Assembly: GCF_024498175.1 (NCBI RefSeq)
Contig: NZ_CP101823.1
Span: forward strand, 1,488,001 to 1,552,000
DNA length: 64,000 bases
Origin: Haloplanus salinarum
GTDB lineage: Archaea; Halobacteriota; Halobacteria; Halobacteriales; Haloferacaceae
Reading direction: 5' to 3'
The notes below the pieces were generated by a model. That model did no database searches. It had not been told where the DNA came from and was given only the letters and a program-made list of their open reading frames with translations. The number at the start of each line of letters is the position of its first letter. The first letter of the stretch is position 1. The position numbers were made by a program, and so were the translations under genes. This document shows, piece after piece, positions 26,665 to 58,307 of this stretch.

Positions 26665-26839
26665 AGCGCGCGTTCAGCGCGTCAGCCACGTGGGAGCAGG
26701 AGGTGTCCAATCCAGTCAATTTACCGAGTCTGTCCGTCGAGGTTCGGGCGCATCCCACGGGCTAAAATGTTTTGATGAAAATTAGTTTTCAAGAAAAAAG
26801 GAATATTTTTCTTCTATACAACTCTAATTTGCTAACGCA

Positions 26840-27465: not shown

Positions 27466-27606
27466 TACATTAACAACTGAGTCGCTTATTCACTAAAAAC
27501 GTTATTAAAAATAGGGGCAGAGCGATTGATACGGACTAGTAAATCGACTCTCCAGCTAACTAAGATTGACCGGCTGGGACGTCGAAAAAGCCCACCCCAA
27601 ATAGAG

Positions 27607-27873: not shown

Positions 27874-27875
27874 CG

Positions 27876-31561: not shown

Positions 31562-31724
31562 TTGTTCTATGGTGCTTACACCTGCGTTTCTTACATAGAG
31601 TATAAACACTGGCTTCCTTTAGCCTTGCGACTGCCGTGGACGGCGGAGACGAGCAGACTTAACCAACAAAATCGGGGTGTGGAACCGTGCGTTGGTTAAG
31701 GATTCAAACTAGGTATCGAGGCAG

Positions 31725-34024: not shown

Positions 34025-34112
34025 CGTGTTCACCGAATCGAGTTCACGGCGACCGCGTCTGTTCAGACAGCGCCGCACTCCTCAGAGGCGTCGAAAAAAC
34101 CGAGTCTGTCGG

Positions 34113-34546: not shown

Positions 34547-34690
34547 TCAGCGGCCGATGGTGCCTTGGCGTGTAATCGGCGCGTCCGGGTTGATGCTGAA
34601 CGCGACGATGGTGGCGTCCTCGGTTGCAGTGACCGCCACATCGTCGTCACCGGTCACGAGTGCGCTCTCGGTGTACCGACCGATCCGCTC
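34547..34690 (-). pseudogene. C-terminal fragment of a pirin/YhaK-like protein
   Basis: The minus strand reads ERIGRYTESALVTGDDDVAV, then TATEDATIVAFSINPDAPIT and RQGTIGR before a TGA. This is the end of the second cupin barrel of pirin-like proteins. There is no start: the frame begins exactly where the 965-aa gene of the giant operon ends (stop at 34689). The rest of the pirin gene is not in view. It marks a recombination joint. Confidence 0.7.
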
Positions 34691-37586
34691 AGTCGATTTC
34701 GTGGCCGTACACGACGGTGGCGGCGACCAGCGACCCGCCCCGGTCGTAGATCAGGACGGCGTCCCCGTCGTTGTTCCAGATCGGTCGTTCCGACCCCCAG
34801 TAGTGCTCGGTGTCGGTGTCGGTGCCCGAACCGGTACGGAGGGTGAGCGACTGGCCCGGATCGAGACGGGTGCCGTCGGGGAACCGGTAGGCGTGATCGG
34901 CGAGGTCCCGAACCGTCCACCGCGAGACGTCGAGTTCCTCGCCAGCGACGTTCTCGACGGTGACGTACTCCTCGGTGAGTGCGTCGCGGTCGTCGTCCGG
35001 CGGATCGAAGGCGGTGTCGGTGACGGACAGCGGTGGCTCCGCGGGCAGCGCCGACAGGTCGGGGTAGTCGACCGACGCGACCACGTCCCCCTCGTCGTCG
35101 CGGACGGTGATCGTATCCGCCGTGTCGTGCCAGCGGTAGGCGTCGAGCCCCCAGTAGAGGTCGCGGTCGGTATCGGTGCCCGTGCCCGTGCGCACCCGCA
35201 CGCGATCGCCGGGAGCGAGTTCGAATCTCTCCGGGAACTCGTAGCCGTGGCCGGCGGCATCCTCGACCCGCCAGCCGGTGAGCGTCAGCATGGCGCCGCT
35301 GGTGTTCTCGATGGCGACGTACTCGTCGGCTGGCGACTGGATCGACGGCGAGTCGGTGTCGACGCGGTACTCGACGACCGACACCGGCCGGCCGGTCGAC
35401 GGCGGCGTAGCGTCGGCGAGCGTCCCGGTGATGGGTTCGGACTCCGCCGGCGGCGCCCGTCCGCCCGGCGGCGCCGCCTCCGTCGTCGGTTCGGTGAAGT
35501 CGAACCGGAGGCCGCTGGAGGCCTCGCCGCGGCCGGTCGACACGCGCCGCCCGGACCACACGTACGTCCGGCCGTCCGTCCACGTCGCGTAGCGGTAGCG
35601 CTGCGAGACGGTCGTGCCGGCGCGGGTGACCTCGTCCTCGTAGAGCCGCATCGACGGGTCGAGGACCCGACCCTGTGGCGTCGGGAGCGCGTCGTCCGGA
35701 TCGTCGAGCGTGCCCGCGTCGAGCAGGATCGCCGGTTCGAGCCGGTACGACTCCGCCCCCTCGGGGTCGGGCTTGAGCGGGACCCAGTGGTCGGGCACGT
35801 CCGTCGCGAGCGTGTACGACTGCTCGGTCCCCGGCGCGGTTTCACCGACCGTCTCGGTCAACACCAGGCGGTGGTCGCGGGTCCCGTCGTCGGTGACCAC
35901 CGGCCGGTGGATCGAGAGGGCCTCGGCGTCGGCCCAGACCGACGCCCCGGCGCCGGCGTGCCGGACCCGGTCGGTGTCGTAGGCCGGGTCGCCGCCGGTG
36001 TACACCGTCAGCGTCTCGCTCGGGGGAACGACCGCGCCGTCCCGTTCGCCGAACGTGTGGACCGTCGTGTCGTCGGCGCGGAGTTGCCAGCCGGTGACGT
36101 CGAGTGGCGCGTCGCCGTCGTTGCGGACGGCGACGTACTCCTCGTCGGGCGGGCCGGGCGTGACGTCGACCACCGAGAGGGTCGGTTGGGTGAACTCGCT
36201 CCGGTCGCGGCGCCCTCCGATCGGGCTCTCGACCAGCGTCTCGATACCGAACACCAGGTTCGCGACCTCGTCGCGGGTGAACCGGACCTCCTCGACAGGA
36301 TCGGCGTCGATGGTCGTCTCGACGAGCGGCGGGAGGAGGAGCCCCGGTTCGTCGTGCCCGGGGAGGTCGAACTCGAAGCCGCCCCAGTCCGTCGCGTCGT
36401 CGCGCTCGACGGTCGGTTCGACGGTCGTCTCGATGCCGAACGTGTCCCGCACGGTGAGGTCGGTGATCCGCGTCACGGAGCCGACGGGTGCCGACAGCGG
36501 CAGCGTGAACCAGTCGGTGCCGGCGACCAGGGCGAACTCCAGCAACAGGAGCCGTGAGAGGTCCTCGCCGGCGGCCGACACCGACCCGAGGTCGACGTTC
36601 GCGTCCTCCAGTTCCCAGAACCGCGGCGCGGGCATCCCCTCGAAGCGAGCCCGCGTCGGCGGCCGCGAGAACGACGCCGTCTCCGTCTCGCCGGCGGCCG
36701 GCGAGAGGCTGCCGGACCGCACCGAGAAGGCGTGCCAGTCCAGCCTGCCGCCGCGGTGGCCGTCGACGTCGAAGACGGTCTCGTTGTCCGGATCGCCCGC
36801 CGCGACCGACCCGGCGTACGAGAGCCGGTCGTCGTCCCACGCCTCCTCGCCGCCGCCGACGGCGGCCGTCGCCGGTTCGGCGTACAGGTCGCGGTACCAC
36901 TCGACGTAGCCGACCGCCGCGCGCTTGAACGGTTCGTCGAGCGCCCGGTCGGCCGCGACCGGGAGCCACGCTTCGGCGGCCCGCCAGCCGCTCCAGTCGA
37001 CGTCGCTCCGGTCGTCGGCGCCGACGATGCCGTCGGCACGGGCGAGCGTCCGGTAGATTTCGACGCCGTCGAGCGCCCGACCCTCCAGAACCGCGGCGAA
37101 CCGCCGGCCCTCGCCGTCCAGCGTCGCCTCGTCGAGGTCGAGCAGGAACGCCTCCGGGAAGTCCTCCGGCGCCGGGAGCGGCGGATCGCCGGCCGCCGCG
37201 TCACCGACTGCGTCGCGATAGCGGTCCAGAAAGCCCATCCCGGCCTCGACGGCCGTCCGCGCGTCCGGATCGGCGCCGTCGCCGACCGCGACCGGTTCGC
37301 GTTCGACCATCGTCGCGAGCGGCGGGTCGGTCGTCGGGTCGTACGGTTCCGCGTCGCCGTCGCCGAGCGCGACCCGGTTCAGGCGGTCGTGGCTGTAGTC
37401 CACGTCCGCACGCACCGGCGAGCCGGCGTCTTCGCCGCGGAATTCGCCGAGTTGTCGCTGCCGAGTCAGCATCCAGAGCGGGTCCGCGACAGCGGCGCGG
37501 AGCGCGTCGGTCAGCCCCTCGTCGCGCGCGATCGGTTCCAGCCGTTCCCACATCGTGTACGACCGCAGGTGTGTGTCGTGTGTCAT
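34689..37586 (-). CDS. 965-aa protein with triple lamin-tail-like domains
   Basis: Last gene of the giant operon. Starts at ATG 37586 (MTHDTHLRSYTMWERLEPIA) behind a GGAGG; an in-frame GTG at 37592 overlaps the previous stop. The N-terminal 500 residues carry a DPLWMLTRQRQLGEFRGEDA segment that I recall from uncharacterised large bacterial proteins. The C-terminal half has three lamin-tail-like (LTD) repeats: EYVAVRNDGDAPLDVTGWQL, EYVAIENTSGAMLTLTGWRV and EYVTVENVAGEELDVSRWTV, the last two followed by RTGTGTDTD and YWG motifs. No signal peptide or membrane helix. Role unknown; the LTDs suggest surface or binding functions. Confidence 0.8.
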   Translation of the reverse strand: MTHDTHLRSYTMWERLEPIARDEGLTDALRAAVADPLWMLTRQRQLGEFRGEDAGSPVRADVDYSHDRLNRVALGDGDAEPYDPTTDPPLATMVEREPVAVGDGADPDARTAVEAGMGFLDRYRDAVGDAAAGDPPLPAPEDFPEAFLLDLDEATLDGEGRRFAAVLEGRALDGVEIYRTLARADGIVGADDRSDVDWSGWRAAEAWLPVAADRALDEPFKRAAVGYVEWYRDLYAEPATAAVGGGEEAWDDDRLSYAGSVAAGDPDNETVFDVDGHRGGRLDWHAFSVRSGSLSPAAGETETASFSRPPTRARFEGMPAPRFWELEDANVDLGSVSAAGEDLSRLLLLEFALVAGTDWFTLPLSAPVGSVTRITDLTVRDTFGIETTVEPTVERDDATDWGGFEFDLPGHDEPGLLLPPLVETTIDADPVEEVRFTRDEVANLVFGIETLVESPIGGRRDRSEFTQPTLSVVDVTPGPPDEEYVAVRNDGDAPLDVTGWQLRADDTTVHTFGERDGAVVPPSETLTVYTGGDPAYDTDRVRHAGAGASVWADAEALSIHRPVVTDDGTRDHRLVLTETVGETAPGTEQSYTLATDVPDHWVPLKPDPEGAESYRLEPAILLDAGTLDDPDDALPTPQGRVLDPSMRLYEDEVTRAGTTVSQRYRYATWTDGRTYVWSGRRVSTGRGEASSGLRFDFTEPTTEAAPPGGRAPPAESEPITGTLADATPPSTGRPVSVVEYRVDTDSPSIQSPADEYVAIENTSGAMLTLTGWRVEDAAGHGYEFPERFELAPGDRVRVRTGTGTDTDRDLYWGLDAYRWHDTADTITVRDDEGDVVASVDYPDLSALPAEPPLSVTDTAFDPPDDDRDALTEEYVTVENVAGEELDVSRWTVRDLADHAYRFPDGTRLDPGQSLTLRTGSGTDTDTEHYWGSERPIWNNDGDAVLIYDRGGSLVAATVVYGHEID

Positions 37587-37588
37587 CG

Positions 37589-40500
37589 TCACTCTCCTCC
37601 GTCCCACCAGTCGAACCGGCCGAACCGGACGGACGGGGCGTCCGGCACAGACTCGTTCGACCCGGCGACCGTGGTGTCGTTGTACGGGAACACGAGTCCG
37701 GGGAGCGTGTGGCCGAACTCCTCGAGGGCGTCGAGGTCGACGCCGCGGAGTTCGACGAGTTCGCGGGTCTCCGACAGCGTCGTCTGGATCGCCTCCCGCG
37801 ACCACTCGACGGGGTCGGTCGGCGTCCACGACTCCCCGCGTCGCTCCCACGCCGGCGGCACGGCGAGCAGCGCGGACTGGGGCGCGCGGGCGCCGGCGTC
37901 GTCGTACTGCAGGCCGACGCCGATCGTCTCCTCCGTCGCCGGGACGGGGTCGACCCAGCCATCGAGTGCGAGTCCCGCGACCGGCGGCTGGCCGTTCCGT
38001 CCGGGCGTCCGTGCGAGTGGGGCGTCGATCCCCGCCCGCGACCCGAACGCGGCGACCATCGACAGTTCGCCGCCGTCGGGCGTCTCGCCGTCGCGGCCGA
38101 TCCAGTCGACCGAGTCGTGGCCCAACTGACCGACCGCGAGGCGATCGTGGGTGTCGCCGTCGTCGGCCAGCGACAGGGCGTCCGCGTACGTCAACGCGTC
38201 GCGCAACAGCGCCGGCTGGTCCCTTACCCGGGCGATCCGCTGCAGCCACGTGTCGACGGCGTAGGGGTCGTCGCCGAGCGCCCGTTCGCTGTCGGCGAAG
38301 GCACTCCTGACTGCCGCCGGGTCAGCCGGCGCGAACGGCGGCAGGACGGTGAACTCCTCGCCGAGCAACGCCTCGAGTCGCGCGCACTGGCCGTCGACGG
38401 TCGGCTCCGCGGCCACCTCGTCCGGATCGTACGCCGCCGCCGACCGGCGCCGGTCGCGGAGTTTCCCCGCGACCGACCGGGCCTGTGCGAGCAGCGTCCG
38501 CCGGTCGGCCGGCCTCCCGCCGGTCCGGGACTGCGGCGTCGCGCCGTAGACGCCGACGTAGGTGGCACGCACCAACGCGAGTCGGAGCGCCTCGAGCGAC
38601 GACTTCCGTAGCGCCCGCGTCGGCGACTCGCCGTCCAGCAGCGGTCGGAGGCGGTCCCGGACCGCGCCGTCGGTCGCGTACTCGAGGTCGACCAGGTCGT
38701 CGAGGTGGTCCCGTGCGATCCGGTCGGCGGGCCCGGCACCGTACGACTGGGCGCCGGTCCTCGCCACCCGAACCGCGTAGCCGGTCAGATCCGGTATCGC
38801 GCGTTCGAGCGCGTCGGCGAGCGCCCGCGGATCGTCGGTCCGGTCGTCGAACAGCGTCGCGGGGTCGCTCCCCGACCGGGAGAGCGCGGCCGTCGCGTCC
38901 GACAGTCGCTCCTGGAAGGCGGCCGGATCCCCGTGCCTGGCGAACAGCGACGGATGCGAGGTCAGCGCCGTGAGATCACGGACGAGGAGGTGTGGCTCGT
39001 CGACGTGTCCGGCGAGCGCCGTGACGACGGGCTCGGGTCGGCGGACCAGCGCCGCTAGCGCCCGCGCGACCGCCGGCGCGTCGGGGTCACCGATCCGGTC
39101 GGACAGCACCCGGCGCAGCCCGGGATCGAAGCCGCCGAACTCGACCGGGAGATCGAGTTCGGGGTCGGCTAGGAAGCTCCGGATGCGGCCCCGCACCTCG
39201 CCGCGTGGCCCGCGCCCCAGCGGGCTCTCGACCTCGGCCCCGGCGACGGTCGCGTACCGCCCTGCCCAGGGCTTCGCGAGGTCCCCACGAGCGTTGACGA
39301 TGTCGGTGACGCCCAGCCGTTCGAGCGGTTCGACGACCGCGTCGATGGCGTCGGCGAGGGCGTCGAGTTCGTGGCGCTCGAGTTCGAGCAGGGCGCCGAT
39401 CGCCCGCAGGTCCGCGTCGGTCAGGGCGTCGTCGCCCGCGGCCCGGGTCAGCGCCGAGACGCGCCCCGCGAGCTCCGCCTCCGAGCGGAGGCCGTCCCAG
39501 TGGGCGTCTCGAACGGCGTCGTCGACGGCGGCGGCCGGGGCGTCGGCGCGCGACGGGTCGACGACGGCCAGCAGCCGCCGGAGCCAGAACAACCGCGGCA
39601 CGACGACGAACTCCTCCTCGAGGAGCGAGGGGAGGGCGGACGGCTCGGGGCGTGGCGGGACGATCCGGAACGACCGGCTCGCGAGCACCTCCCTGACCGT
39701 CCCGTCACCCGATCGGAGCCGGCGCTCGAACCGCTCGGCTCGCGCCTCGAACCCGAGTTGGGCGATGATCGCCAGCTTCGCCTCGGTCGGCAGCGACTCG
39801 ATCAACGACCGGCGGCGTTCCCGGGGTTCGTCCTCGTACTCCTCGAGCGCCTCGCGGCGTTCGTCGTCCAGCCGGTCCGCGGCGATTTCGAGCACGAGTT
39901 CGGCCTGCTCTTCGACCGGGAGCCGCGAGAGGGCGCGCCACACCGCCTCGTCGAGGCGCTCCTCTGTGACGACCGTAACGAGCAGTCCCGTGCCGTCCGG
40001 GTAGCCGTCGAGGTCGACGGTGACGGACGCGACCCCCTCGTCGTCGGTCCGGACCGACCGCGTCTCCCACAGCGCCGGTTCGCCGGCGCTCCCCAGGGTG
40101 ACCGTCACGTCGGTTCGCGGGGCGTCGGTGGCGACCGAGAGCGTCGCCCCCTGCTCCGGCGGGACTTGCGCCTCGGCGAGGGTCTCCGACAGCTCCGTCG
40201 GCCCGGCCCGGAGCGCGCTCGCCATCGCCCGGAGTTCGGCCGGGAGCGACTGCGACTGGCCGTCGGGTCGTGCGTAGTCGGCGAGGCGGCCCACGGTGTC
40301 GACGAGTTGGGAGAGCGGGGCCGCGCGGTCCAGCGACGCCGTCGCCTCCTCGATGCGCTCCGCCATCTCGATCAGCGTCGGCCCGGACTCGTCGTCCAGC
40401 GTCGCCAGCCGGTTCGCGATCATCGCCTCGATTTCCGTCACCGCCTCGGCCGCCCCGTCGGCGCGGTCGGCCAGCCGATCCGCCGTGCCCGGCGCGTTCG

Positions 40501-43500
40501 TCGACTGTCCGTCGAGATACCCCTCGTCGGCCTCGGCGGACGGATGCGCCAGATCGGTCGCGTCGGCCGGTCGGGCCTCGCCGATCAGCTCCGAGAGGCT
40601 GCGGGCGTGCTCGACGAAGGCCGCCACGCTCACGTCGGCGTCCTCGGGGGTGTCGCCGAACGACAGCTCCAGCTCCGCGTCGTTCTGGATCGGCGGGTCG
40701 TTGCGGGGGCGACGCCGGAAGAGCCGGTAGCCGATCCGGCGCTCCAGCGCCGAGCCGTCGGTCTCCCCTTGAGTCGCTGTCAGCGCGACTGCGTCCAGCG
40801 GCGAGAGGTCGAGTTCGTCGAACCGGCAGTCGTCGGCGACGGCGAACGACCGCTCCTCTGGGGCGGCCGGCCACGCCTCGTACCGCAGGACCGCCGTTCC
40901 GTCGCCGTCGCCGTCCCCGGAAACCGAGAGCCGGAACCCCTCCTCGGTGACGGTGGTGATCTTCCCGCGTCGGTGGCCGGCGACGCCGCCGTCGGCGTCG
41001 GGGCGCGGGAGCGAGAGGACGTGGTGGTCGGAGCCGTAGCGAGCGTCGCCGCCGTGGCTCCGGACCGTCTGTGCCGTGGGACCGACCGCGACTCCCTCGG
41101 ACCAGCCGGCTGACCCGGCGTCGAGCGCCGGCGTCGTCGCTCCGTCGGCGGTCGATACACCGCCGACGCCGGTGACGGCTATCGCCCCCGGCTTGCCGTC
41201 CGTCTCGACGGTCACGGTCTCTCCGTCCGCGGGCACGGTTACCGTCCCGACCGCCGGCGGGCCGCCGACGGCGCCGTCGCTCGTCTCCGCTCTCGCCGAA
41301 TCGACGGCGACGTAGGTGACCAGTCGCGGCGTCGCCGCCCAGGGGACGCCCTCGTCGGGCCGGCGGTAGGCGAGTTCGAGCGTCGATCCGAGGCCAGTGA
41401 CGCGTGCGGTCGTCCGGCCGCCGAGTCGCTCCCCGTCGGGGTAGAGCAGGTCGAGGGCGGCGTCCTCGGAGACGGTCCGGGCGTCGGCGCCGGTGGTCGG
41501 GTCCGTCGCGGCCGCCGTCACCGTCTGGCCGATTTCGCCGCCGGCGTCGGCGACGGCGATGCCGCGGGAGAGGCCGCCCGCGTCGGCCACCGATCCGCTC
41601 GCGTCCGCCGCGCCCGTCGCCATCGTCGCGGTGAGCCTGACGTGGTCGGCGTCGACGCCGAGGTCGACGGTCTGTGTCGCGTCGCCGTCGTCCACGTCGG
41701 TCGCGCTCGGCGGGCGGGCGACGAAGCTCCCGGCGCGCACCTCGGAGCGGTCCCCGGTCTTCACGGCCGTGTAGGCGAGCGAGAGCGTCCCGTCGGTGGG
41801 CGTCTCGACGGTCGAGAACGCGAGTTCGAACCCGTCGTCGGTCGTCCGCCGGAGCCGGCCGGTGATCGTGCCCGCGGCCCCATCGGCGGTCCGGAGGGGG
41901 ACGTTGATCGCGGCCGACGAGTCGGTCGCGTAGTGCGTCTCCGTGGGGCCGACGGCGACGCTCGTCGACTGCTGCGTGACGGCGCCGTCGGCCGCGACCG
42001 TCGCGGTGCCGTGGAGCCACCCCGGCACCGTCGACGCGGCGCCGACCGACTCCGTGATCGTCTCGACGCCGGTCGAGGCGGTGAACACCAGGAGGTCGGG
42101 TTCGAAGCCGACGTCGTCGACTGAGACGCGCTCCGGCCCGTCCGGAACCTCGATCGACCCCGTGGCGAAGTCCCGATCGGCGGTCCACTGGAAGGCGGCC
42201 CGGCAGCCGACGCGGTCGGGCGACGGGAGCTGTTCGCCGAGCCAGCCGTCGAGCGCGGGTTCGGCGTCGCTGCGGACCGACACCGAGTCGAGCGTCCGCG
42301 CACCGTCGCCGTCGACCGGCGACGGGTCGAGCAGGTCGGGATCGATCGGCTCCGCGAGGTCCGAGCGGTCGACGTACGGGAGCGAGAGCGCGTCTGGGAG
42401 GTCGGCGACCCCCAGGGTCTCCCGCAGCGACACCTGCCAGTCGCTCGGCGTCGGCACCGAGTCGGCGTCGCCGAACAGGAGCAAGAGCCGGTGGTTCACC
42501 CCGGTCTCTGTCCGGGGCGTGTCCAAGACGTCCGGGTCCTGCATGAGTTCGCCCCGCGAGAGGGCTTCGAGCGCCGCGCTGGCACGCTGGACGTTGCCCG
42601 TCGCGAGCTGGTGAACGCTCTCCGCGACCAGCAGGTCGGCGATGGCGTCGATCTCGTCGTCGATCTCCGACAGCAGGGCGTCGATCTCGGCGCTCGCCGC
42701 GGAGTTCGGTTCGGGGAACGGATCGCCCCGGGGGAGGTCGCCGTCGTCCCACGCCTCGTAGACCGCCATCCCGTCGACCACCTCGCTGGCCGCGGAGAGG
42801 TCGACCTCGCTGGGTTCGGCGCCGCCGTGATCGAGACGGCCGGCGATCGAGGGGTACGCCTCGCGGAACGGGGCGATGTACCGCTCGGCGTCGGTTACGG
42901 CGTTGTCGTCGTCCTCGCTGATCCGGTGGAGGCCCCGCTCGAACCGGTAACCGACCAGTTCGGAGAGCGAGGAGCCGTTCCTGACGCCGGTCAGATACGG
43001 CCAGACCGCCTGGAGCCGTTCCGCCGAGAGGTCGACCGCGAGCGTCTCGCCGTGTGGGCCGTCGGCGTTCGTCTTGTGGCCGTTCCGGAGGATCGACGCC
43101 GTCGTCGCCTGGTTCTGAGAGGGCGCGAGCAGGTACTCGGCATCGGTGTCCGGGTCCGGCGTGAGATCCGTCACGTAGCCGTAGGCGCCGACGTGGACAT
43201 CGGGTTCCCGCTCCCGGACCCGTTCGAGGCGGCGGGTCGCGACCGACGTCCACCACGCGTCGAGGCGGTGGCTACAGAGGTCCATCGCGCCGCGGGCGAT
43301 GCGGTCGAGATCCGCGGATTCGGGGTCGATCCGCCCGAGTCGGTCGAGGCTGGCCGCGAACGACGCGAGGACCGGGTCGACCTGCGGGGCGTCGCCGGCC
43401 ACGCTCGCGCCGATGGCGTCGCGGTACTCGTCGCCGCTCGACAGGGACGGGTGGTTCGCCAGCGCGTCCGGGATCGGGTCCTCGAGGTCGTCGTACGCCG

Positions 43501-49300: not shown

Positions 49301-49872
49301 TTCGGACTGCCGACGATCTGTGAGTGGGTCCAGGCCCAGGCCTCGTCTGCCGGCGGCAACTGTGCCGAGGGGTCCGCGTCGCCGCCGATCCTGAGCGCCG
49401 GCAGCGGACGACTGCCGTCGGACTCCGTCTCCACGCCCGCCGTCCCCTCGACCACGACGAGTCGCAGCCAGGGCAAGTTGCGTCCGTGGTCGTCCGTCCG
49501 CGTCGGGCTGAACAGCCACGGCAGGTCCACGGCGTCTATCTCGACCAGCGGGAAGTAGTTCGGCGGGAACTCGTCGGAGCCCGGCTTGGGCTCCCGGCGG
49601 ACGATCTGTCGCCGGTCGAAGCCGGTGACTCGACCCGGGCCGTACATCTCGAGGTCGACCGTGCCGCGCTCGCTCGTTCGATCGCCGTCCGTGGTCGCGA
49701 CGGCATCGTAGGACACCTCGATTCCCCCGCCCGAGGGGAGCGACCCGTCGGCGGCGTCGCTCTCGCTGAACGGTGCCGTCGGCCGGAACCCGCGGCGCAC
49801 GCTGCCGTAGAAGCGGTATTTCGTCGCGTCGTCGTCGCCCGATTCGATCGCGGTGTCCGTGTCGTCTGGCAT
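46384..49872 (-). CDS. 1,162-aa protein of unknown function
   Basis: Starts at ATG 49872 (MPDDTDTAIESGDDDATKYR), two bases after the previous stop, and overlaps the start of the 2,931-aa gene by one base. An N-terminal beta-rich region (RRGFRPTAPFSES; DAVDLPWLFSPTRTDDHGRN) is followed by a large helical middle and a C-terminal domain with TTNVVVLIRGNLLRRYPNTA, IEPDMTFLGFDLTP and DLGWFFAFEEPVGEARFGLD. I recall the last motifs from similar multi-gene sets in bacteria, also uncharacterised. No signal peptide or transmembrane helix. Probably a structural partner of the giant protein. Confidence 0.75.
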   Translation of the reverse strand: MPDDTDTAIESGDDDATKYRFYGSVRRGFRPTAPFSESDAADGSLPSGGGIEVSYDAVATTDGDRTSERGTVDLEMYGPGRVTGFDRRQIVRREPKPGSDEFPPNYFPLVEIDAVDLPWLFSPTRTDDHGRNLPWLRLVVVEGTAGVETESDGSRPLPALRIGGDADPSAQLPPADEAWAWTHSQIVGSPKAQHGRSIPEELAADSTATVARLLCPRNLTANTSYVAALVPTFEAGRLAGLGESVPDEEGLSLAWGGDTGDELVLPMYDHWAFETGKKGDFEYLARKLTPRELSGATVGVRTVDASDPGPETLASPGTTVDVGGALGPTDGVSVDDYPAGLTDELRTLLNRPESIQDRTSYPAVGPPIYGQWHAQRDELDDVDDWANSDENEVEWLYDLNLDPSYRVPAGIGTGVVRDNQEELMASAWEQVGEIRRANRLLSAAQLSRAASNTVARTLAGRTDTGTLLSFTAPAHGRVLQDGETAASRLADSSFPEATLSAPFRRLVSGRGPLARRVDGAVDAPSIVRGLLDGRLDPPSGTGGPDGSKSVAGETDPDRLCEQSRALDEESTEREVDERVLAARRHLDEIEGSSRTVMDALERILDGLREGSIDRDAYESQHTRIGVSWDQLYGRASTFQGRNPDEGPFGTVVAAELAEDLPSVSDDLDHRRRGRLYGDLMDPLRGPVPLSEPFEEVTVRHVERAIDRVLDVQFAIHRIREHLDERPGSDADYLEGAFCGYDATPRERPAPDPQGAIDASLDFERALEERVSERLGGDVGERADPLDTIMAAPEFPQPTYRSLKDVSTEHLLPGADEVEDDTVGALATNPAFIEAYLVGLNHEMARELRWRRYPTDQRGSYFKRFWDQRSRVPKPDDPDRLDDVFPLHLWDDEGPNRRARSPLGTNTRTGSERSIRDPPPTDPAATTNVVVLIRGNLLRRYPNTAIYAAKAYEEGDDRVPRWPSSTPSDDPAASEHVEYPVFRGEIEPDMTFLGFDLTPDEVTGADPTASVTGGEGETDDLGWFFAFEEPVGEARFGLDEPGDDEDTSGIPAGITHDDGEGGRTTITTADDSAEHGWSALSWGHVTSGDAPTHVDVSDARPASGNWAVEENTSWLEDGSEPFDREDAAAWGTNGAHMARITWQRPVRIAIHAQDIVPGSGGGD

Positions 49873-49874
49873 GG

Positions 49875-50678
49875 TTACTGATCTCCCGTGTCTCGCTCGT
49901 GTGTCGCGACGACGCGCAGTTCGCCGTCCACGTCGGCGTGCTCCGAGAGGTACGCCGCCTTCGCGTCCTTCGCCGCCGTCTGCGACTGCCCGCCCTCGGG
50001 GTTGGGGTCCACCGCCGTCGCCAACGCGAGGTCCTCGGCCCACACCACCACGTACTGGGTGTCGGCCACCGACACCGACTGGTCGGGGCCGGCGAAGCGT
50101 TCCGATCCGGTCGTCCGGCTGTCGGCCGTGGCGACCGCCCCGGTCTTCTCGAGTTCCGCGGCCGTGTCCAAGTGGAGCGTCGAGTCACCGACGCCCGCTG
50201 GCAGATCCGCGCCGGCGAGCCGGTAGTTCCCGTCGCTCTCGTCGATGACCGTTGTCTCGAAATCGAGCGTCGCGACCGACGCCAGCGAGCCGTCGTCGCG
50301 CCCCGCGAAGGACAACTGGTTGTTCTCGATGCGCTTGCCGGCGGGTAACTGCTCGAACGCCTCCGACTGGAGCTTCTCGCTGTCGGACATCTGCTTGAAC
50401 TTCGCCGGCGCGAACCGCTCGGTCGCGTCGTCGGGGGCGGGCAACTCCCCGCCCGTCGTCGAGAAGTTCTCGACGGCGAACCGGTCGTATGTCGGCGTCG
50501 CGTTGCCGTACTTCTCGATGGTCGTCTGCAGGGGGACGACGGTCTGTCGAACCGACACCGTTCCGAGCGGGTGGACGAGCACCGGCGCCGACTCGGGGGC
50601 CGAACCCTCCGTCTGCGGTTGGCGGACGCTCACGAGCGTGGTCCGGTCGTCGGGCAACTGGGCGGCCCAGTTGCCCAC
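49875..50678 (-). CDS. 267-aa ORF, probably the C-terminal part of the DUF6603 protein
   Basis: Begins at a GTG inside the DUF6603 gene, overlapping it by 49 bp in another frame. It reads GNWAAQLPDDRTTLVSVRQP, VLVHPLGTVSVRQTVVPLQT, then ERFAPAKFKQMSDSEKLQSE and ends DGELRVVATHERDTGDQ. In relatives as I recall them this segment follows the DUF6603 domain in the same chain, and the end of the longer ORF (LHQALGRWATGPPSCPTTGP) looks like out-of-frame reading of the same DNA. So this is either a broken gene, a programmed frameshift or a coupled second ORF. Confidence 0.7.
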   Translation of the reverse strand: MGNWAAQLPDDRTTLVSVRQPQTEGSAPESAPVLVHPLGTVSVRQTVVPLQTTIEKYGNATPTYDRFAVENFSTTGGELPAPDDATERFAPAKFKQMSDSEKLQSEAFEQLPAGKRIENNQLSFAGRDDGSLASVATLDFETTVIDESDGNYRLAGADLPAGVGDSTLHLDTAAELEKTGAVATADSRTTGSERFAGPDQSVSVADTQYVVVWAEDLALATAVDPNPEGGQSQTAAKDAKAAYLSEHADVDGELRVVATHERDTGDQ

Positions 50679-53545
50679 CGCCCCAGCGCCTGGTGGAGGT
50701 CACCCAGCACGTCGGCCGTCGGCAGCGACTGGGCCTCCGGGTTCGAACCGATCGAGACGTCGACGTTGACCGTCACCGAGAGGAAGACGACTTCGATGGT
50801 CACCTTCCCCCGGACGCGCCAGGGCTTGGGCCCCGAGAGCGTCCCGTCGACCTCGATACCGAACGTCGACCCCTTCAGGGCGACCTGCATCTTCGCGTAG
50901 AAGTCGACGACGAACTCGAAGGGGTCGAACCGGAACAGCGCGTCGAAGCTCAGCTCGCCGTCGACGGACGCCGCGCCGGCCTCCGCCTCGAGGGTCACGC
51001 CGGCGCCGATCTGGAAGGTGTTGGGCGTCGTCGCGACGTACGCGGTCAACTCGACCGAGGTGCTCCCGCCGCCCTTCGAGAGGCTCGCCCGCATCCGGTC
51101 GAGTTCGGGGAAGGAGTCCGGCGGGGTGTAGCGCGGGTTGAACCCGCCGATCGACAGGATGAACGAAGAGTTGTCGCCCCAGCCGGACCGCAGCGCCATG
51201 TCGCCGGAGACGTCGAACATGGCGATCTTCGAGTCGTACAGCGAGGCGTCGATCGCGATGCGCTTCTCGGGGATGTCGACCACGCCCAGGATGCTGAACT
51301 TCAGGTCGACGATCGCCCCCTCGCCCTGCGGGAGTCCTAGCGTGATCTTGCCGAGCAGCGCGATCTTCCAGGTCGGGATCGACACCATGATCCCGACGTC
51401 GATGAAGATGATCGGCGGAATCCCCCAACTGAACTTCGCCATCGGGCCGAAGACGTGCGTGTCGGGCTTCGGCGGGAAGAACGTCCGGAGGTCGCTGATG
51501 ATCTCCGGCGCGTTCGCGACGACGTCCTCCGGGAACAGCACCGATCCGATCCGGCCGTTCCGGACCCCCTCGCCGAGGCGCTTGGCCCGGAACCCCCTGT
51601 GGACCCCGACGAGGCCGCCGAGGGCGTTCAGGAAAAAGCCCATCGGCAGCGTGACCGCGGGGAAGTCGGCCGTGATCAGGATCAGCAGCGAGTAGCCCTC
51701 GCGCCCGTCCGCGAGCGGCGTCTTCAGAATCCCGACGGCGTTGACCGCGACCTCCTGGATCTGGAGCGACAGCGCGCCGGAGTATCGTCCCGCGTCGGGG
51801 TCGAACGAGAGGAAGCCGCCGCCGCTGACCGCCCCGGTGTCGATCGCGAGGCCGATCCCGGTCGGCGGTTTGAACCCCAGATCGACGTCGAGCGGGCCGA
51901 GCGAGCCGTCGCTTCGCTGCGGCACCGAGAACGTCGCCGAGAGGCCGACGTTCCGAACCTGCGCGTCGACGGGGCCGATCGACAGCGACGACGTCAGCCC
52001 CAACTCGACCGGCACCGAAGACGACTCGCCCCCGACCTCGATGGCGACGTCGATCGTCTCGATGGTCAGGGTGTCGAGGATCGTCTCGTGGATCGGGAGC
52101 GTCGCGTCGAGGCTGGCGCTCCCCTCGACGAAGACACCCTTGTCCGTCCCCCAGCCGACGCCGAGGTCGAAGTCGGTGGCGAGACCCTCCTCCGGGAGGA
52201 CCGTCGCGAGGAACCCCCCGGCGTCGCTCGGCGCGATGACGAACGACGCGCCGGCGGCGCGGGCCACCATCCGGACCGACTGGCTCGGCACCGACAGGGT
52301 CGTCGACACGTCCGCCCCGAGCGAACCGATCTCCAGGCGCGTCGCGTCCTCGCCGCCGATCAGATACGCGAACTCGCTGTCGGGGGGGGGCTGCTTCTCC
52401 GCCGACGTCGACAGCCGCAGTTCGCCCTCGTCGACCCCCTCGAGGGAGACTCCGTCCGGCGTGATCGCGAGCCCCGGTATCCTCGCGGTCGCCTGAAACG
52501 CCAACTGCCACGAGCCGAGCGGGAACCGGTACGACGCCGAGCCGAGGGGTTCGAGGACGGTCGAGAACTCGCCCGCCGTCGGATCGAAGTAGAACACCGC
52601 GGTGAGCCGGAACCGCGAGGAGAGCGTCCCGGAGTCGTCGCCGTTCCCGGAGTCGCCGTCGCCGGAGCCGTTGCCGTTCTCGGAGTCGTCGTCCCCGGTG
52701 TCGAACGATCCGGACACGGCTATCGAGAGCGCCCCGACCGGCTCCGCCCCGTCGGGCACCGCGTCGGACTCGACGTCGAGGGCGGTGATCCCCTCGCCGG
52801 TGGACTCGACGTTCGTCGTCGCCCACGCCTCGATGCCGGTCGTCCCGATCAGCGTCGCCAGCCGCGGCAGCAGTTCGTCCAGTCCGGCGGCGGCCTCGTC
52901 GACGCTGAGCGCCGCGAAGTCCGTCTCCCCGAAGTACGCCTCCTTGAGCGTCGGGCCCGGTTCGGTCAACAGCGGACCGAGCCGTTCGAACGCGATCTGC
53001 GCGTTCGGACCGCCGGCGCGGAGCGTGGTCCCGTCGGCGACGCCCCGCCCCTCCCAGGCCGCCGTCTCGTAGATCGTCAGCACCCAGGCGATCTGTTCGA
53101 AGAGCGGGTGGTTGTTGCGGGTGTACTCCGTCACCAGCACCGACACCAAGTCGGCCCCGAACTGCTCGACGTCCTCCTCGGTCAGTTCGCTGAGCGTCTC
53201 GACCGACTCCCTGACGGTCTCGATGGCCCGAAACAGGTCGCCGACCGTCGAAACGAGACCGACGAACTCCTCGAGCGACGTCGGGGGGTCCTCCGTCGCC
53301 GCGAGCAACTGCTCGGCCGCGGAGAAGATCGATTCGAAGGCGGCCGGAAGTTCGTCGAGGGGGACCGCGTCGGGGTTCCACCCCATGTTGACCAGCAGCG
53401 CCTCCCGCTGGTAGGGGTCCTCGGCGGCGAGCGTGACCGGTTCGGTCAGTTCCGTCAGGGTGCGTTCGAGCGCACCCCCCTCCTCGTCCCCGCCGACGCC
53501 CGGCGCGTCGTCGCCGGGAGTCCCCGGACCGTCGCCGTCAGACAT
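50630..53545 (-). CDS. DUF6603-domain protein, 971 aa
   Basis: Starts at ATG 53545 (MSDGDGPGTPGDDAPGVGGD), overlapping the PhoD-like stop by 8 bp. Residues 20-200 are helical; about 282-305 form a Gly/Asp/Ser/Asn linker; the rest is strongly beta-rich, with long amphipathic strands. The DUF6603 signature is clear: FFLNALGGLVGVHRGFRAKR, FPPKPDTHVFGPMAKFSWGI and PTWKIALLGKITLGLPQGEG. No signal peptide. The beta repeats suggest a large propeller- or barrel-like scaffold. DUF6603 has no known function. The last 15-20 residues look out of frame (see the next ORF). Confidence 0.8.
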   Translation of the reverse strand: MSDGDGPGTPGDDAPGVGGDEEGGALERTLTELTEPVTLAAEDPYQREALLVNMGWNPDAVPLDELPAAFESIFSAAEQLLAATEDPPTSLEEFVGLVSTVGDLFRAIETVRESVETLSELTEEDVEQFGADLVSVLVTEYTRNNHPLFEQIAWVLTIYETAAWEGRGVADGTTLRAGGPNAQIAFERLGPLLTEPGPTLKEAYFGETDFAALSVDEAAAGLDELLPRLATLIGTTGIEAWATTNVESTGEGITALDVESDAVPDGAEPVGALSIAVSGSFDTGDDDSENGNGSGDGDSGNGDDSGTLSSRFRLTAVFYFDPTAGEFSTVLEPLGSASYRFPLGSWQLAFQATARIPGLAITPDGVSLEGVDEGELRLSTSAEKQPPPDSEFAYLIGGEDATRLEIGSLGADVSTTLSVPSQSVRMVARAAGASFVIAPSDAGGFLATVLPEEGLATDFDLGVGWGTDKGVFVEGSASLDATLPIHETILDTLTIETIDVAIEVGGESSSVPVELGLTSSLSIGPVDAQVRNVGLSATFSVPQRSDGSLGPLDVDLGFKPPTGIGLAIDTGAVSGGGFLSFDPDAGRYSGALSLQIQEVAVNAVGILKTPLADGREGYSLLILITADFPAVTLPMGFFLNALGGLVGVHRGFRAKRLGEGVRNGRIGSVLFPEDVVANAPEIISDLRTFFPPKPDTHVFGPMAKFSWGIPPIIFIDVGIMVSIPTWKIALLGKITLGLPQGEGAIVDLKFSILGVVDIPEKRIAIDASLYDSKIAMFDVSGDMALRSGWGDNSSFILSIGGFNPRYTPPDSFPELDRMRASLSKGGGSTSVELTAYVATTPNTFQIGAGVTLEAEAGAASVDGELSFDALFRFDPFEFVVDFYAKMQVALKGSTFGIEVDGTLSGPKPWRVRGKVTIEVVFLSVTVNVDVSIGSNPEAQSLPTADVLGDLHQALGRWATGPPSCPTTGPRS

Positions 53546-56500
53546 TGTCGCGCTCCACCTCCGAGACGTCGACGGCACCCTGAATCAGGTCCGAGGGTCG
53601 GCTCGAGACGTTGCCGGTCGGCACCGTCGAACTCGGCGGCGCGACGCCCTGCTTCCCGCCGATGCCGAGGGCGTTGGGCAGCATGTCGACCGTGAACTGC
53701 GTGTAGGGGTGTGCCTCGGCGGTCCCGCCCATCCGCCACCAGAGTTTGTGGTTGACGAACCGCCACTCGTTGGGCACCGACTGGTTTCGGAAGGTGAGGT
53801 CCTGTGTCCCCCAGTCGAGCGTCACCTCGCCGACGTTGTTCCGGCCGACGACCTCCCCGCCGTAGTCGCGGTACTTGTTGAACCGCCGCCAGGCGTCGGC
53901 CGGGTCGGTGGCGTCCCCCTCGGACCCCCCCGACGACGGCTCCCACGACTCCGTCGTCATCTGCCGGCCCCGGAGGTAGTCGACGCGATACTCCCAGTGG
54001 GGTTTCCCTCCACGCTGCATCTCCGTGAGCAGCCCGACCCCCCAAGTCGCGTCCTCCTCGAGACCTTCGAGGTGGGATATCGTCGCGTCCTCCAGCGACT
54101 GGAGCATCTCGTCGACGCCGCCGTAGTCGGTCCGGTTTCCGATGATATCGTCGAGTTCCTGGTAGACGATCCGGGCCTGTGACTGGGTGCCCTGTTTGGG
54201 CGTACCGAACAACGTGAACAGCTCCCAGCCGTTCCCGAGTCGCTCGAGATACCGATCGACGTCGGAGCTCGAAATCGCGTTGCCGCCGGCCCAACTGACG
54301 ACGGTCTGGCCGACTTTCCGCAGATCGTAGTCCCGCATCAGCGAGACGGCGTATGGGTCGCTCGGGCCGTCGGCCCCGAGGACGATGTCGCCCTCGGCGT
54401 ACCGGAGTTTGATCGTCCCGAGGTCGATGGTTTCCAGTAGCGGCTTGTTGTCCGAGAGGCTCCACGTCCCCGTCGGCGCCGGGAGCTTGAGGACCGGAAT
54501 CCGCATCAGTTCCAGTTCCCCCTCCTCTTTGAACCGATCCCACTGGATCGCGATCCAATCGGAGACCCCCTCGAAGTCGATTTCGGCGCCTTCGATGAAG
54601 TACTTCGTCGTGATGAGCTGTTCCGACGGGGTCGTCTCGTTCCAGGGCGTCGCCAGCGTCGCCCGCGAGTCCGTCTTGAGGATGTCCGTGTTCGCCGCAC
54701 GCTCCAGAACCCCGTGGAGCCGCTGTGCCATCGGCGGCGTCGGCTGCTGATCGGGCATCTCGTAGATGTACCGATCGACGATGTCCCAGTTTCCACTCGG
54801 GGTGATCTCGTTGATGAACTCCATGTACGGGAGCGGGTCGAGGTCGTCGACCACCTCGCGGGCCTCGTCGAAGGAGTCGTTCCACTCCGTGATCGTCTCC
54901 GGCGCGCTCTCGTGGTACCAGCCGCCGAAGGCGGAGGCACGCCTCGCGGTGTAGCCGACGGGATGGAGGAGGTTCGTCAGGAACGATTCGTTCTTGGCCG
55001 CGCTGGCCGTGAGGTTCGCGAACCGAGACGAGAACGCGGTCTTGTCCTCCTTGTCGTAGTTGTGCCAGTACTCCGTCCGCGTCGTGTAGCCGTAGTGCAC
55101 GTCGCCCGAGAGCGTGACGACGTGCTCGCTCAGCCTGGACACGTCCCGCAGGAACGACTCCAGAGCCGCACGTTGGAGGCGCCAGTGCTCGTAGTCCGCG
55201 TGTGCCTCGGCGGAGACAATGTCCCAGTCCCGCTCCGACTCCGGAACGTCGCGTGCTTGGAGGAACTCGTTGTTGGTCTCGCGTGGGTAGTGTTTGCCCC
55301 ACTCCTGGCCGAGGTCGACCAGCGGCACCGTCCACAGCGGGACCGGACTGACGAGAAACAGGGGTTTCGAGCGATCCCAGGAGTTGATCGGGACGTCGAA
55401 CCACGGCGCCATGTCGAACGTCCGTTCGAAGTCGACGAGTTGCGTCCGCTGGCCCAGCGCCGAGAGCAGTTCCGGCGCGGCCTTCGGCGAGGGGTATCCC
55501 CGCCAGGTTCGGGTGTCGAGTACCCCGATGCCGTACTCGCCGGGGAAGAGCGCGAAGTGGTACGTGATCCGATCCGGCGTCCCGCCGTCGGAGTCGCCGT
55601 TGCCGGAATCGTCCTCCCCGGAGTCGCCGCTGCCGGACATCGGACTCGCGCCGACCCGGTTCCACTTCCCCGGCGTGTAGATGTCAGCGTGTGACTCACC
55701 CTCCGGGACCATCGCGTCCGTCCGGTGGGGAATCCCGAGCAAGTCGTCGAGTTCGGTGCTCTTCGGGCCGTCGAGGTCGCGGTCGACGTAGTCGTCAAAC
55801 CCGTCGAGGAGCGTCTCGCCCGAGCCGCCGCTGTACGTCGTCGGCTGGTTTCCCCACATCTGACAGACGTTCGCCGCCAGCATCCCGTTCTGGATGCAGG
55901 CGTGACCCAGCGGCCGCGACAGCACGGACTCGACCCACTCACCGGTCAGGAACCAGTCGTCGGTCACGTCGTGGTCGTCCCACATCATGTACGTCGGGAC
56001 GTTCGCGAGGACGCGCCGAACGTCGGACAACTCCTCTTTGAAGTACTGGAGCCGTTGCTTGTCGTCTTCGTACTCCGATTCGGCCTCCGAGACGACGTCG
56101 CGTGCGACCTTCGGGCTCTGTGTCTCGTCTTTGAGCGTCGAGAGGGTCAACGACGACTTCGGGGTCCCGTCGCTGTCGGTCAGTTCGCTCGGCAGTTCGC
56201 CGCCGTTGTCGTTTCTGATCGTCCTGAAGATGTGTGAGGGGATATCCTGGCCGTCGTTCCACACCGTCTCGAGGTCGGGGAACGTCGACGAGACGTCGCC
56301 CGACGGCCAGAGCACGTCGGACCAGACGGCCAGGTACATCGCGAAGTACTCCCCGACACCGAAGAGGTGGCTCGTGGCGAGTTTCGGCTCCGTGTCCATG
56401 CCCGCGACGTTGTTGGCGTAGTACTGGCGGTAGTCCGGCCACAACTGGTAGAGGGTGACCGTGTCCCACTCCTCTTTCCAGTCCTCGAACAGCGGCACCT

Positions 56501-57227
56501 CCTCGGCTCTGCCGAGGAACTGCGTCCCGGCATTCCACAGGAGGGTACAGAACGTGTCCGCGACGTCGTCGGCGTAGATCTGATCGCCGGTCAGAAACAG
56601 CGAGTGGGGGCGATCCGTGGGCGTCCCGAGGTTGTCGGCGATGGGCTGCCGGATCGCCGACAGCGCCCCCCGCTTCTTGCCGTGTGGCTTGCGACAGGAC
56701 GCGTGGAAAAATCGGAGGTCGTTCTTGTCCTTCGGGGGAATCGCGAAGGAGGGGAGCGACTCGTCCCCGGTCGCGTGGACCCGCGGGAGGCCGTTCCCGT
56801 CGGGCGCGAGGACGCCGGGCGTCGAGAGCGACGCGCCGCCCGAGCCACCGACCACCGACGGCCGGTCACCGGGGAAGGTGAACGTCAGATCGTACTCGTA
56901 GGTAGTCCCCGGGGAGAGACTCAATCCGCTCACCTCGACGACCCCGACGAAGAGGTTCGAGCCGACCTCGAGAAGCGACGTCTCCCCGGACGTTCCCTCC
57001 TGTGAGCCGCCCGAGCGGACCTCCAGATCGACCTCGACCTCGGCGTGTGTCGCGATCCAGACCGCGACCGATTCGTCCGTCACGCGGCGAAGGATCGGCC
57101 CCGCCAACACGAGCGGCAGCGTCTCCGCGTCGGCCTCGTCGCTCGCCGTGACGCTCAGCGCGCCGTCGCCGTCGGTCGTCAGGTGCGGGACCGAAGTCCG
57201 CCACGGGTCGCGGAGGCCCTCAGGCAT
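53538..57227 (-). CDS. PhoD-like phosphatase with long C-terminal extension, 1,229 aa
   Basis: First gene of the giant operon. An N-terminal Ig-like PhoD_N domain (about 35-120) precedes the metallophosphatase domain. Metal-site motifs are present: FFHASCRK (174-180), LTGDQIYADD (near 213-221), MMWDDHDVTDDW (near 415-425) and LSGDVHYGY (near 706-714). An Asp/Gly/Ser linker lies near 529-546. PhoD enzymes are Ca/Fe phosphodiesterases, usually exported by Tat, but no leader is visible here. Residues about 830-1229 (e.g. WDRFKEEGELELMRIPVLKL; FTLFGTPKQGTQSQARIVYQ) are extra, and I do not recognise them. The normal length is 450-550. Confidence 0.85.
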   Translation of the reverse strand: MPEGLRDPWRTSVPHLTTDGDGALSVTASDEADAETLPLVLAGPILRRVTDESVAVWIATHAEVEVDLEVRSGGSQEGTSGETSLLEVGSNLFVGVVEVSGLSLSPGTTYEYDLTFTFPGDRPSVVGGSGGASLSTPGVLAPDGNGLPRVHATGDESLPSFAIPPKDKNDLRFFHASCRKPHGKKRGALSAIRQPIADNLGTPTDRPHSLFLTGDQIYADDVADTFCTLLWNAGTQFLGRAEEVPLFEDWKEEWDTVTLYQLWPDYRQYYANNVAGMDTEPKLATSHLFGVGEYFAMYLAVWSDVLWPSGDVSSTFPDLETVWNDGQDIPSHIFRTIRNDNGGELPSELTDSDGTPKSSLTLSTLKDETQSPKVARDVVSEAESEYEDDKQRLQYFKEELSDVRRVLANVPTYMMWDDHDVTDDWFLTGEWVESVLSRPLGHACIQNGMLAANVCQMWGNQPTTYSGGSGETLLDGFDDYVDRDLDGPKSTELDDLLGIPHRTDAMVPEGESHADIYTPGKWNRVGASPMSGSGDSGEDDSGNGDSDGGTPDRITYHFALFPGEYGIGVLDTRTWRGYPSPKAAPELLSALGQRTQLVDFERTFDMAPWFDVPINSWDRSKPLFLVSPVPLWTVPLVDLGQEWGKHYPRETNNEFLQARDVPESERDWDIVSAEAHADYEHWRLQRAALESFLRDVSRLSEHVVTLSGDVHYGYTTRTEYWHNYDKEDKTAFSSRFANLTASAAKNESFLTNLLHPVGYTARRASAFGGWYHESAPETITEWNDSFDEAREVVDDLDPLPYMEFINEITPSGNWDIVDRYIYEMPDQQPTPPMAQRLHGVLERAANTDILKTDSRATLATPWNETTPSEQLITTKYFIEGAEIDFEGVSDWIAIQWDRFKEEGELELMRIPVLKLPAPTGTWSLSDNKPLLETIDLGTIKLRYAEGDIVLGADGPSDPYAVSLMRDYDLRKVGQTVVSWAGGNAISSSDVDRYLERLGNGWELFTLFGTPKQGTQSQARIVYQELDDIIGNRTDYGGVDEMLQSLEDATISHLEGLEEDATWGVGLLTEMQRGGKPHWEYRVDYLRGRQMTTESWEPSSGGSEGDATDPADAWRRFNKYRDYGGEVVGRNNVGEVTLDWGTQDLTFRNQSVPNEWRFVNHKLWWRMGGTAEAHPYTQFTVDMLPNALGIGGKQGVAPPSSTVPTGNVSSRPSDLIQGAVDVSEVERDNV

Positions 57228-57307
57228 CGGCGCTCACGCGTCCCGACGCTGCCACAGAAGAGTCAACCTGTTGGCACGTCATCGCGCGTAAAATCAGAAA
57301 GCGGCGT

Positions 57308-57318
57308 ATTAAAAGTAA
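57308..57318 (-). promoter_or_regulatory. Candidate promoter of the giant operon
   Basis: On the minus strand TTACTTTTAATACG lies about 80 bp upstream of the PhoD-like start and is the only TATA-like stretch in that otherwise GC-rich leader. The IS1595 element begins just behind it. Confidence 0.35.
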
Positions 57319-57331: not shown

Positions 57332-58307
57332 CAGATTGTTGGTCGGGTAGAACTGTCGCTGTGAAAGCGTAGCGGGCAAGGGTGACGCGACGCGTCACTC
57401 GAACGCAATGTTCCCATTTGAATTGCTGAGTTCAGAGGCGAGGGCCGCGAACCTGCTGGAGCAGGTTCGCTGGTGCGAGGGCCTCTGTTGCCCGCGCTAC
57501 CGGTCTGAGTCGGTGATTAAACACGGCAGCTATCGAGAGTATCAACGGTACCTCTGTAAGGATTGCGACCGCACGTTCAACGAACTGGCAACACAATCTT
57601 CGCGCACGCGAAGATCGGCCTCGACAAGCTGTTGTTCGCGTTCTACTCGTTCCTCCGGTTCAACACGAGTATCCGCCAGTTAGACGCTGAAAGTGACGTT
57701 TCGTATCGCTCGCTTCACCGGCGCGTCGAGCAGTTCGCCAGAACGCTCGACGCGCCAACGATCGATCTCGTTGGCCCGGTCGAGATCGACGAGTTCTACG
57801 TCTCTGCCGGGAAGAAAGGCCGCGAGCGCGACTCTCGGTCGCGCTCGCGTGCCCTCTCGAAACGCGGACGAGGAACGTATGAGGGAGATAAACCGCCAGT
57901 GTTCACGCTTGTTGATCGCGGCAGCGGTCATCGATACGTCGTCCCGGCGAAATCTGCCGACGAAGCGACGGTGCGACTCCTTCTCGACAACCACGAGAAG
58001 GAGTCGCTGATTGTCTATACTGACGGATTTCGGGCCTATGATCCACTCGACGATGACGAGAGCTTCCACCGAGAATCAGTAATTCACGGTGACGGCGAGT
58101 ACGTTGATGGAGACGCACACGTGAACACGTGCGAGAGCCACGCGTCGCTGGCGCGACGGTGGCTCTCGCCGCACCGAGGCGTCTCAAAGGACAAACTGAC
58201 AGCGTATCTCAGACCGTTCGAGCTTCGACGGCGAATCCTCCGCAAACCGGGACGAGAAGCACTGAAACAGATTATCCGAGAAGTTCTCTGACACACCAAC
58301 AATGTAC
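57332..58307 (+). mobile_element. IS1595-family insertion sequence
   Basis: About 976 bp. Both ends contain ATTGTTGGT as an imperfect inverted repeat (57335-57343 and, complemented, around 58296-58304). The element lies at the 5' edge of the giant operon. No target duplication could be fixed. Confidence 0.65.
57408..58291 (+). pseudogene. IS1595-family transposase, one-base frameshift
   Basis: The first frame (57408 on) gives MFPFELLSSEARAANLLEQV and a zinc-ribbon-like part with CCPRYRSE and CKDCDRTF. Near 57585 the frame shifts; the rest follows as TGNTIFAHAKIGLDKLLFAF through to the stop at 58291. Catalytic acids are visible: Asp in VEIDEFYVS, Asp in YTDGFRAYDP and the N/E region VNTCESHASLARRWLSPHRG. 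One base is missing relative to an intact gene. Probably inactive, unless frameshifting is programmed. Confidence 0.8.

Follow-up and report, generated by a model that had tools for sequence, protein, structure and literature searches.

Type VI secretion systems (T6SS) and extracellular contractile injection systems (eCIS), including the contractile systems of haloarchaea (PMC11566945), set exchangeable cargo beside a constant machine. The effectors of these systems include phospholipase D (PLD), proteases and pore formers of the BTH_I2691 family, of which Tke5 is reported to be a potent antibacterial pore-forming toxin (PMC12909789). In polymorphic toxin systems, rapidly exchanged enzymatic payloads are likewise combined with a constant delivery part (PMC3482391). 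The same logic is found in an operon of the haloarchaeon Haloplanus salinarum, located at positions 34689-57227 of a stretch of 64,000 nucleotides (assembly GCF_024498175.1, contig NZ_CP101823.1, positions 1,488,001 to 1,552,000), which as a whole is called the window below. The operon encodes a PhoD-like enzyme, followed by a DUF6603 protein (D) and three further proteins (M, L and T). As judged from sequence comparisons, D-M-L-T is the constant part of this operon, and PhoD is one of several enzymes that occupy an exchangeable first slot, the cargo types of which overlap with those of T6SS and eCIS.

The operon also differs from these systems in several respects. In contrast to T6SS and eCIS, the carrier consists of four giant proteins (D, M, L and T), none of which matches a tail or baseplate family. 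No Pfam match to such a family was obtained for any operon protein, and PHROG gave a single strong tail match (phrog_7043), which is located in the lamin-tail region of T. Unlike in polymorphic toxins, the payload is a separate first gene and not a C-terminal domain, no known trafficking domain is present and no immunity gene was seen. DUF6603 is a Pfam family (PF20248) for which only the domain is named, and the D protein of the window is a clear member. In a literature search of 5.39 million papers, which had preprints and most subscription papers outside its scope, no paper mentioning DUF6603 was found, and none describing the operon, the partners of DUF6603 or the cargo slot. Classical PhoD alkaline phosphatases/phosphodiesterases are exported through the twin-arginine translocation (Tat) pathway and are about 550-600 aa long. 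The cargo of the window matches PhoD by Pfam (PF09423, 31.7 bits, cut-off 27) and by the metal-site motifs GDQIYAD, DDHD and SGDVH, but it has no leader, is 1,229 aa long and is tied to D.

Six open reading frames (ORFs) on the minus strand had been predicted originally, and all of them are present at their places and with their lengths, except that the 267-aa ORF is the C-terminus of the DUF6603 protein and no separate gene. The features of the operon are as follows.

53538..57227, minus strand: cargo gene, PhoD-like metallophosphoesterase of 1,229 aa with an N-terminal DUF7800 domain (32.1 bits) and the motifs LTGDQIYAD, WDDHD and SGDVH
50630..53545, minus strand: main part of D, DUF6603 protein of 971 aa (Pfam DUF6603, 392 bits, cut-off 27)
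49875..50678, minus strand: tail of D, a 267-aa ORF identified as the displaced DUF6603 C-terminus by alignment to Halobaculum gomorrense
46384..49872, minus strand: M, 1,162 aa, no Pfam family, with the motifs FPPNYFPLVE, NPAFIEAYLVGLNHEMARELRWRRYPTDQRG and RGNLLRRYPNT
37589..46384, minus strand: L, 2,931 aa, no Pfam family, with the motif RLETRF
39950..40174, minus strand: weak BGTF (haloarchaeal surface protein) domain in L, residues 2071-2145 (NCBIfam NF045517, 24.7 bits, cut-off 40)
34689..37586, minus strand: T, 965 aa, with the motif QLGEFRGEDAGSPV, a core common to bacteria and additional lamin-tail domains
34707..35030, minus strand: the best match among the three lamin tail domains that T contains (Pfam LTD, 160.5 bits over three stretches)
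57307..57314, minus strand: TTTTAATA, a TATA-like box of the archaeal type, located about 80 bp upstream of the PhoD gene, read from the sequence and a candidate single promoter of the operon

The genes are tightly coupled. PhoD and D overlap by 8 bp, with the ATG start codon of D at 53545 preceded by GGAGG; D and its tail overlap by 49 bp, the tail and M are separated by 2 bp, M and L overlap by 1 bp, and L and T are separated by 2 bp. In this DNA of 71% G+C, the operon ORFs are overlapped by ORFs on the plus strand that are as long as 1,147 aa, so ORF length alone is weak proof of coding. In H. gomorrense, counterparts of D, M, L and T are present in identical order with 36-42% identity over most of each protein, and this conservation shows that the operon is coding. 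Chance ORFs in G+C-rich DNA were ruled out, as both the reading frames and their order are kept in relatives.

The constant part of the operon is found far beyond the haloarchaea. Searching genome contigs with an M profile resulted in 71 loci, in bacteria belonging to the Nitrospirota, Actinomycetota, Acidobacteriota, Myxococcota, Chloroflexota, Pseudomonadota, Bacteroidota and Planctomycetota, and in archaea belonging to the Halobacteria, together with one Thermoplasmata archaeon and one Hermodarchaeum. D-M-L-T loci thus appear to span about a dozen bacterial phyla plus archaea, with several of the M loci coming from metagenome bins of unchecked binning. The same gene order is also present in plasmid records of Natrinema, Salinigranum, Halobellus, Halalkalicoccus, Streptomyces, Nocardia, Rhizobium and Paraburkholderia. 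None of 83 loci shows another order of the four families on one strand. All four families occur as separate ORFs in 44 of these loci (36 as D-M-L-T and eight as D-D-M-L-T), while the remaining loci are truncated at the end of a contig or contain ORFs that are fused or split; in one locus (L096), D is on the opposite strand. The four-gene block measures 15-22 kb, and the median gaps between its genes are -4, 8 and 1 bp.

As these loci had been found through M, D and T were searched separately in 292 Halobacteria genomes. Strong matches to D and to T were each obtained in ten genomes, and these are the identical ten; two more genomes have weak DUF6603 matches. In each of them, D and T are on the same strand and T follows D at a distance of more than 10 kb, and all ten read as complete D-M-L-T. 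If genomes were independent, the chance of this coincidence would be about 1 in 1e18, and relatedness makes the real figure larger. Among 297 genomes of the Actinomycetes, the class of Rhizocola, T is found in 13, 11 of which also carry D; the two T matches without D are a fragment at a contig edge and a match of 38 residues. This indicates that D-M-L-T is a co-inherited set, which probably makes one assembly.

Co-occurrence of the families in a fixed order elsewhere, by which the original prediction was to be judged, was therefore found for D, M, L and T. The claim that the set matches no known system also holds, since no described system was found to match it. The set is patchily distributed, being present in ten of 292 Halobacteria genomes, while DUF6603 is absent from all 11 congeners, and in the window it has insertion sequence (IS) elements on both sides. 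The further suggestion of one large, laterally moved complex with a phosphoesterase agrees with this co-inherited, patchy and IS-flanked set as far as the four families are concerned; the phosphoesterase itself is not a constant part.

The first gene is tightly coupled to D in most loci but belongs to unrelated families. Of the 61 D genes for which sufficient upstream sequence is available, 44 are preceded within 100 bp by an ORF of 300 aa or more in the same direction, and in 34 this ORF lies within -20 to +30 bp. By locus, the slot holds PhoD in 15 cases (the window and Salinigranum included), PLD in ten, S8 subtilases in seven, M64-like metallopeptidases in four, S1/trypsin-like proteases in two and a galactose-oxidase-like protein in one; some slot genes fall outside the assigned classes. 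Haloarchaea additionally carry calpain-like cargo in four loci, for which no PDB match was found, so that it is named solely after its position and a short motif surrounding the cysteine, and BTH_I2691-like pore formers in three loci, with partial matches (39.5, 21 and 23 bits against a family cut-off of 150) located on the C-terminal hydrophobic part. The catalytic motifs are intact in the members checked, namely two HKD motifs in PLD, D-H-S in S8, HExxH in the M64-like peptidases and the metal-site motifs in PhoD. The phosphoesterase had been regarded as a fixed component, which is not borne out, as the slot elsewhere contains PLD, proteases, pore formers and others.

The D protein tracks its cargo. 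A tree built from 49 D proteins requires at least 17 cargo changes, compared to a mean of 31 (minimum 25) with shuffled labels; after the tree was dereplicated to 38 rows, 17 changes were obtained against a shuffled mean of 23.6 (minimum 19). Several Nitrospira operons have two pairs, PLD-D followed by S8-D or M64-D, before a single M-L-T, and the Nitrospira D copies cluster by their cargo. In addition, a C-terminal segment of about 115 residues is common to S8 and trypsin-like cargos (hhalign 97%, E 5.5e-11), two enzyme classes with no relation to each other, and recurs in a second trypsin-like gene from Paraburkholderia (E 7e-18). We read this segment as a putative docking tag. No such segment was found in the remaining cargo classes, PhoD and PLD among them, so these must dock otherwise, if at all. 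Searching 290 Burkholderiales genomes for the tag resulted in one strong match, which adjoins D; this is too few to generalise.

A second type of DUF6603 operon, which lacks L and T, occurs in Actinobacteria at three of the loci (L109-L111) that carry D without T. In two of these loci (L109 and L111), the protein after DUF6603 has an N-terminus that aligns with M (hhalign E 2.8e-6). In the place of L and T, this type has a laminin-G protein and another, unrelated one that is about 1,000 aa long, and in L110 a gene with a metallo-beta-lactamase fold overlaps the start of D.

The absence of Sec or Tat leaders and membrane helices from the operon proteins of the window had been predicted, and hydropathy analysis led to the same result. 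Across the D, M, L and T families, no general signal peptide or membrane helix was detected by hydropathy; five M proteins have one mid-chain hydrophobic stretch each. The PhoD protein of the window has no Tat signal and its N-terminus is not hydrophobic, while a PhoD relative from Anaerolineae (L052) has a Tat-like N-terminus. D has no signal peptide and is modelled as an amphipathic beta-meander. In this model (32 relatives; pLDDT 79, pTM 0.51), about 220 mostly helical residues are predicted to be followed by a long beta-meander of about 28 long strands, the faces of which differ in hydropathy (2.1 versus -0.7), with an alternation of 2.83 versus 1.40 for shuffled sequences. The nearest solved folds in Foldseek are FimD, LptD, ApoB100 and porins (E about 1e-4). 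As these archaea do not have outer-membrane proteins, the likeness of D to FimD, LptD and porins is only an analogy. A T relative was modelled by AlphaFold 2 with pLDDT 76 and pTM 0.75; no PDB fold matched the model, and its single BFVD match below E 0.001 has a negligible probability (0.14) and TM-score. The sequence profiles of M, L, T and D gave nothing meaningful against the PDB, where helical designed proteins match the D N-terminus, and M, L and T belong to no Pfam family apart from accessory domains. The archaeal copies add lamin-tail domains in T and BGTF-like domains in L, which are typical of surface proteins, and two L relatives carry BGTF in their annotated names.

Together, D-M-L-T and its cargo slot appear to be new as a system, for which a function is only proposed. 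In our tentative reading, to which we give slightly less than even odds, the operon encodes a carrier, D-M-L-T, dedicated to an exchangeable effector enzyme that it presents or delivers, most likely against other cells. The large multi-subunit carrier would serve a single co-translated effector encoded first, which in the window would be the PhoD-like phosphodiesterase, and each enzyme would have a D of its own as partner. D, which is produced with no signal peptide, would bind or enter a membrane or lipid through its amphipathic sheet. M, L and T would form a common scaffold, with surface-type accessory domains (BGTF and lamin-tail) in Haloarchaea, and the complex would assemble in the cytoplasm before presenting or delivering the enzyme. 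The physical complex, the action of D on membranes or lipids, the export or release and the hostile use are parts that we infer. Other cells are favoured as the target because of the kinds of cargo, which include a T6SS-type pore former, phospholipase D and proteases. The injection-type device guessed at originally gains indirect support from these slot contents, but no contractile apparatus is present in the window's genome. A broader and more doubtful proposal is that of a widespread delivery machine, neither contractile nor viral, that Bacteria and Archaea have in common. In this machine, a soluble D would act with three giant partners to bring the enzyme paired with it onto or into the target membrane. 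A four-gene block that keeps its order in two domains of life and is combined with interchangeable attack-type enzymes would represent a microbial machine of a new kind. It would also offer hypotheses on several uncharacterised protein families, of which three have no Pfam model at all, and would make archaeal-bacterial antagonism by a non-contractile route directly testable.

Several observations weigh against a delivered effector. No immunity gene is evident, as cargo and D have no gene between them and the cargo is not regularly preceded by a small gene, and no secretion or lysis gene is consistently linked to the loci. Among the Actinomycetes, D occurs in 31 genomes, about 20 of which have D without T. 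Some of the calpain-like and S1-like assignments rest on motifs or weak matches. Foldseek gives D low TM-scores (0.12-0.16 by query), and most of the best matches are outer-membrane proteins. Finally, D in the window is frame-shifted, so this copy may be dead. Separately, a short gene before the pore-former-like cargo of Halalkalicoccus (L100:10723-11457) was considered as an immunity gene and rejected, since it resembles a truncated lipase.

The frameshift gives rise to an alternative that is compatible with any of the proposed functions, in which the window copy is a non-functional relic with an inactivated D. The tail of D is 41% identical to residues 904-1158 of a single H. gomorrense ORF of 1,159 aa, and since D is one ORF in that relative, the D of the window, which is split at about 50650, has a 1-bp frameshift or a sequence error. 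All other ORFs across 22 kb are open, with a G+C content at third codon positions of 0.89-0.94, and the PhoD motifs are intact; this speaks for a shift that occurred recently or for an error in the sequence. We consider a relic doubtful.

An unlikely alternative is that of a surface- or lipid-bound enzyme complex with a housekeeping or nutritional role, such as phosphate, peptide or lipid scavenging, that is not hostile. Such a role would fit the surface-type lamin-tail and BGTF domains of the archaeal proteins, the common use of PhoD and proteases in scavenging, the lack of an immunity gene and the ApoB lipid belt among the fold matches of D. It fits poorly with window proteins that have no signal peptides, with a T6SS-type pore former that has no obvious nutritional use and with a patchy distribution linked to plasmids and IS elements.

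Intracellular defence or cell suicide, in which D-M-L-T would sense infection or damage and release a membrane- or protein-degrading effector, is also considered improbable. In PADLOC 2.0, no defence model matches D, M or L, and only the lamin-tail region of T matches a model (SNc+LTD). No ATPase or nucleotide-binding family was found by Pfam among the operon proteins, few defence genes are annotated in the flanks of the plasmid loci, and the size of the four-gene block is unusual for a defence system. These points stand against a swappable effector beside a constant module, which is the logic of many defence systems, the lack of leaders on the proteins, the AbiEi gene and IS elements near the operon and a restriction endonuclease near L102.

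It is a very remote explanation that the operon supplies contractile injection systems (eCIS or archaeal T6SS) with cargo and scaffold, and it was ruled out as a general one. The cargo types overlap, and one Rhizocola D-M-L-T copy (L124-L125) is a few kb from a sheath-bearing, eCIS-like cluster. However, the sheath protein PF04984 is absent from the window's genome and from ten of 18 operon-bearing genomes tested (present in eight), and the proteins of that cluster recur beside no other locus except for one weak match in L051. Contractile systems are therefore not needed. Genes directly after T encode an H-type lectin/tail-fibre-like protein (L070:19346-20680), a protein with a weak peptidoglycan-binding match (L084:10717-11916) and an Amidase_2 protein (L097:18947-21205); these are possible target-binding or wall-opening additions.

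The genome of Haloplanus salinarum consists of one 3.45-Mb contig, and H. gomorrense belongs to the same family. The operon has 71.3% G+C, the chromosome 65-72% in eight of nine sampled 20-kb stretches and 57% in one, and the flanks of the operon in the window 58-59%. As the operon equals the chromosome and the flanks are lower, the neighbourhood and not the operon is compositionally odd, and a foreign composition of the operon island was ruled out. Lateral movement would thus be suggested by patchiness and context, not by composition. The mobile elements on both sides are as follows.

57563..58291, plus strand: ISXO2/IS1595-type transposase in the upstream flank (Pfam DDE_Tnp_IS1595, 73 bits)
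31740..33032, plus strand: IS605 OrfB (TnpB/Cas12f-like) protein in the downstream flank (Pfam)

A viral or proviral origin was ruled out, as M has no relatives in the IMG/VR viral contigs. Outside IMG/VR, one unverified human-gut 'Bacteriophage sp.' contig (L106, MT835531.1) carries M-L-T and is probably a bacterial contig mislabelled as phage.

Other genes were observed in the downstream flank. An AbiEi antitoxin is clearly matched at 30749-31609 (PADLOC E 6e-98), and the region 33029-34078, which adjoins the IS605 OrfB gene, has weak matches to an ArdC N-terminal domain and an M78/IrrE peptidase. Further away, in low-G+C DNA at 16329-29138, three CobW-type metal chaperone genes are found around a ZnuA/ABC-3 transporter cluster, which is possibly a metal (zinc) island beside the operon.
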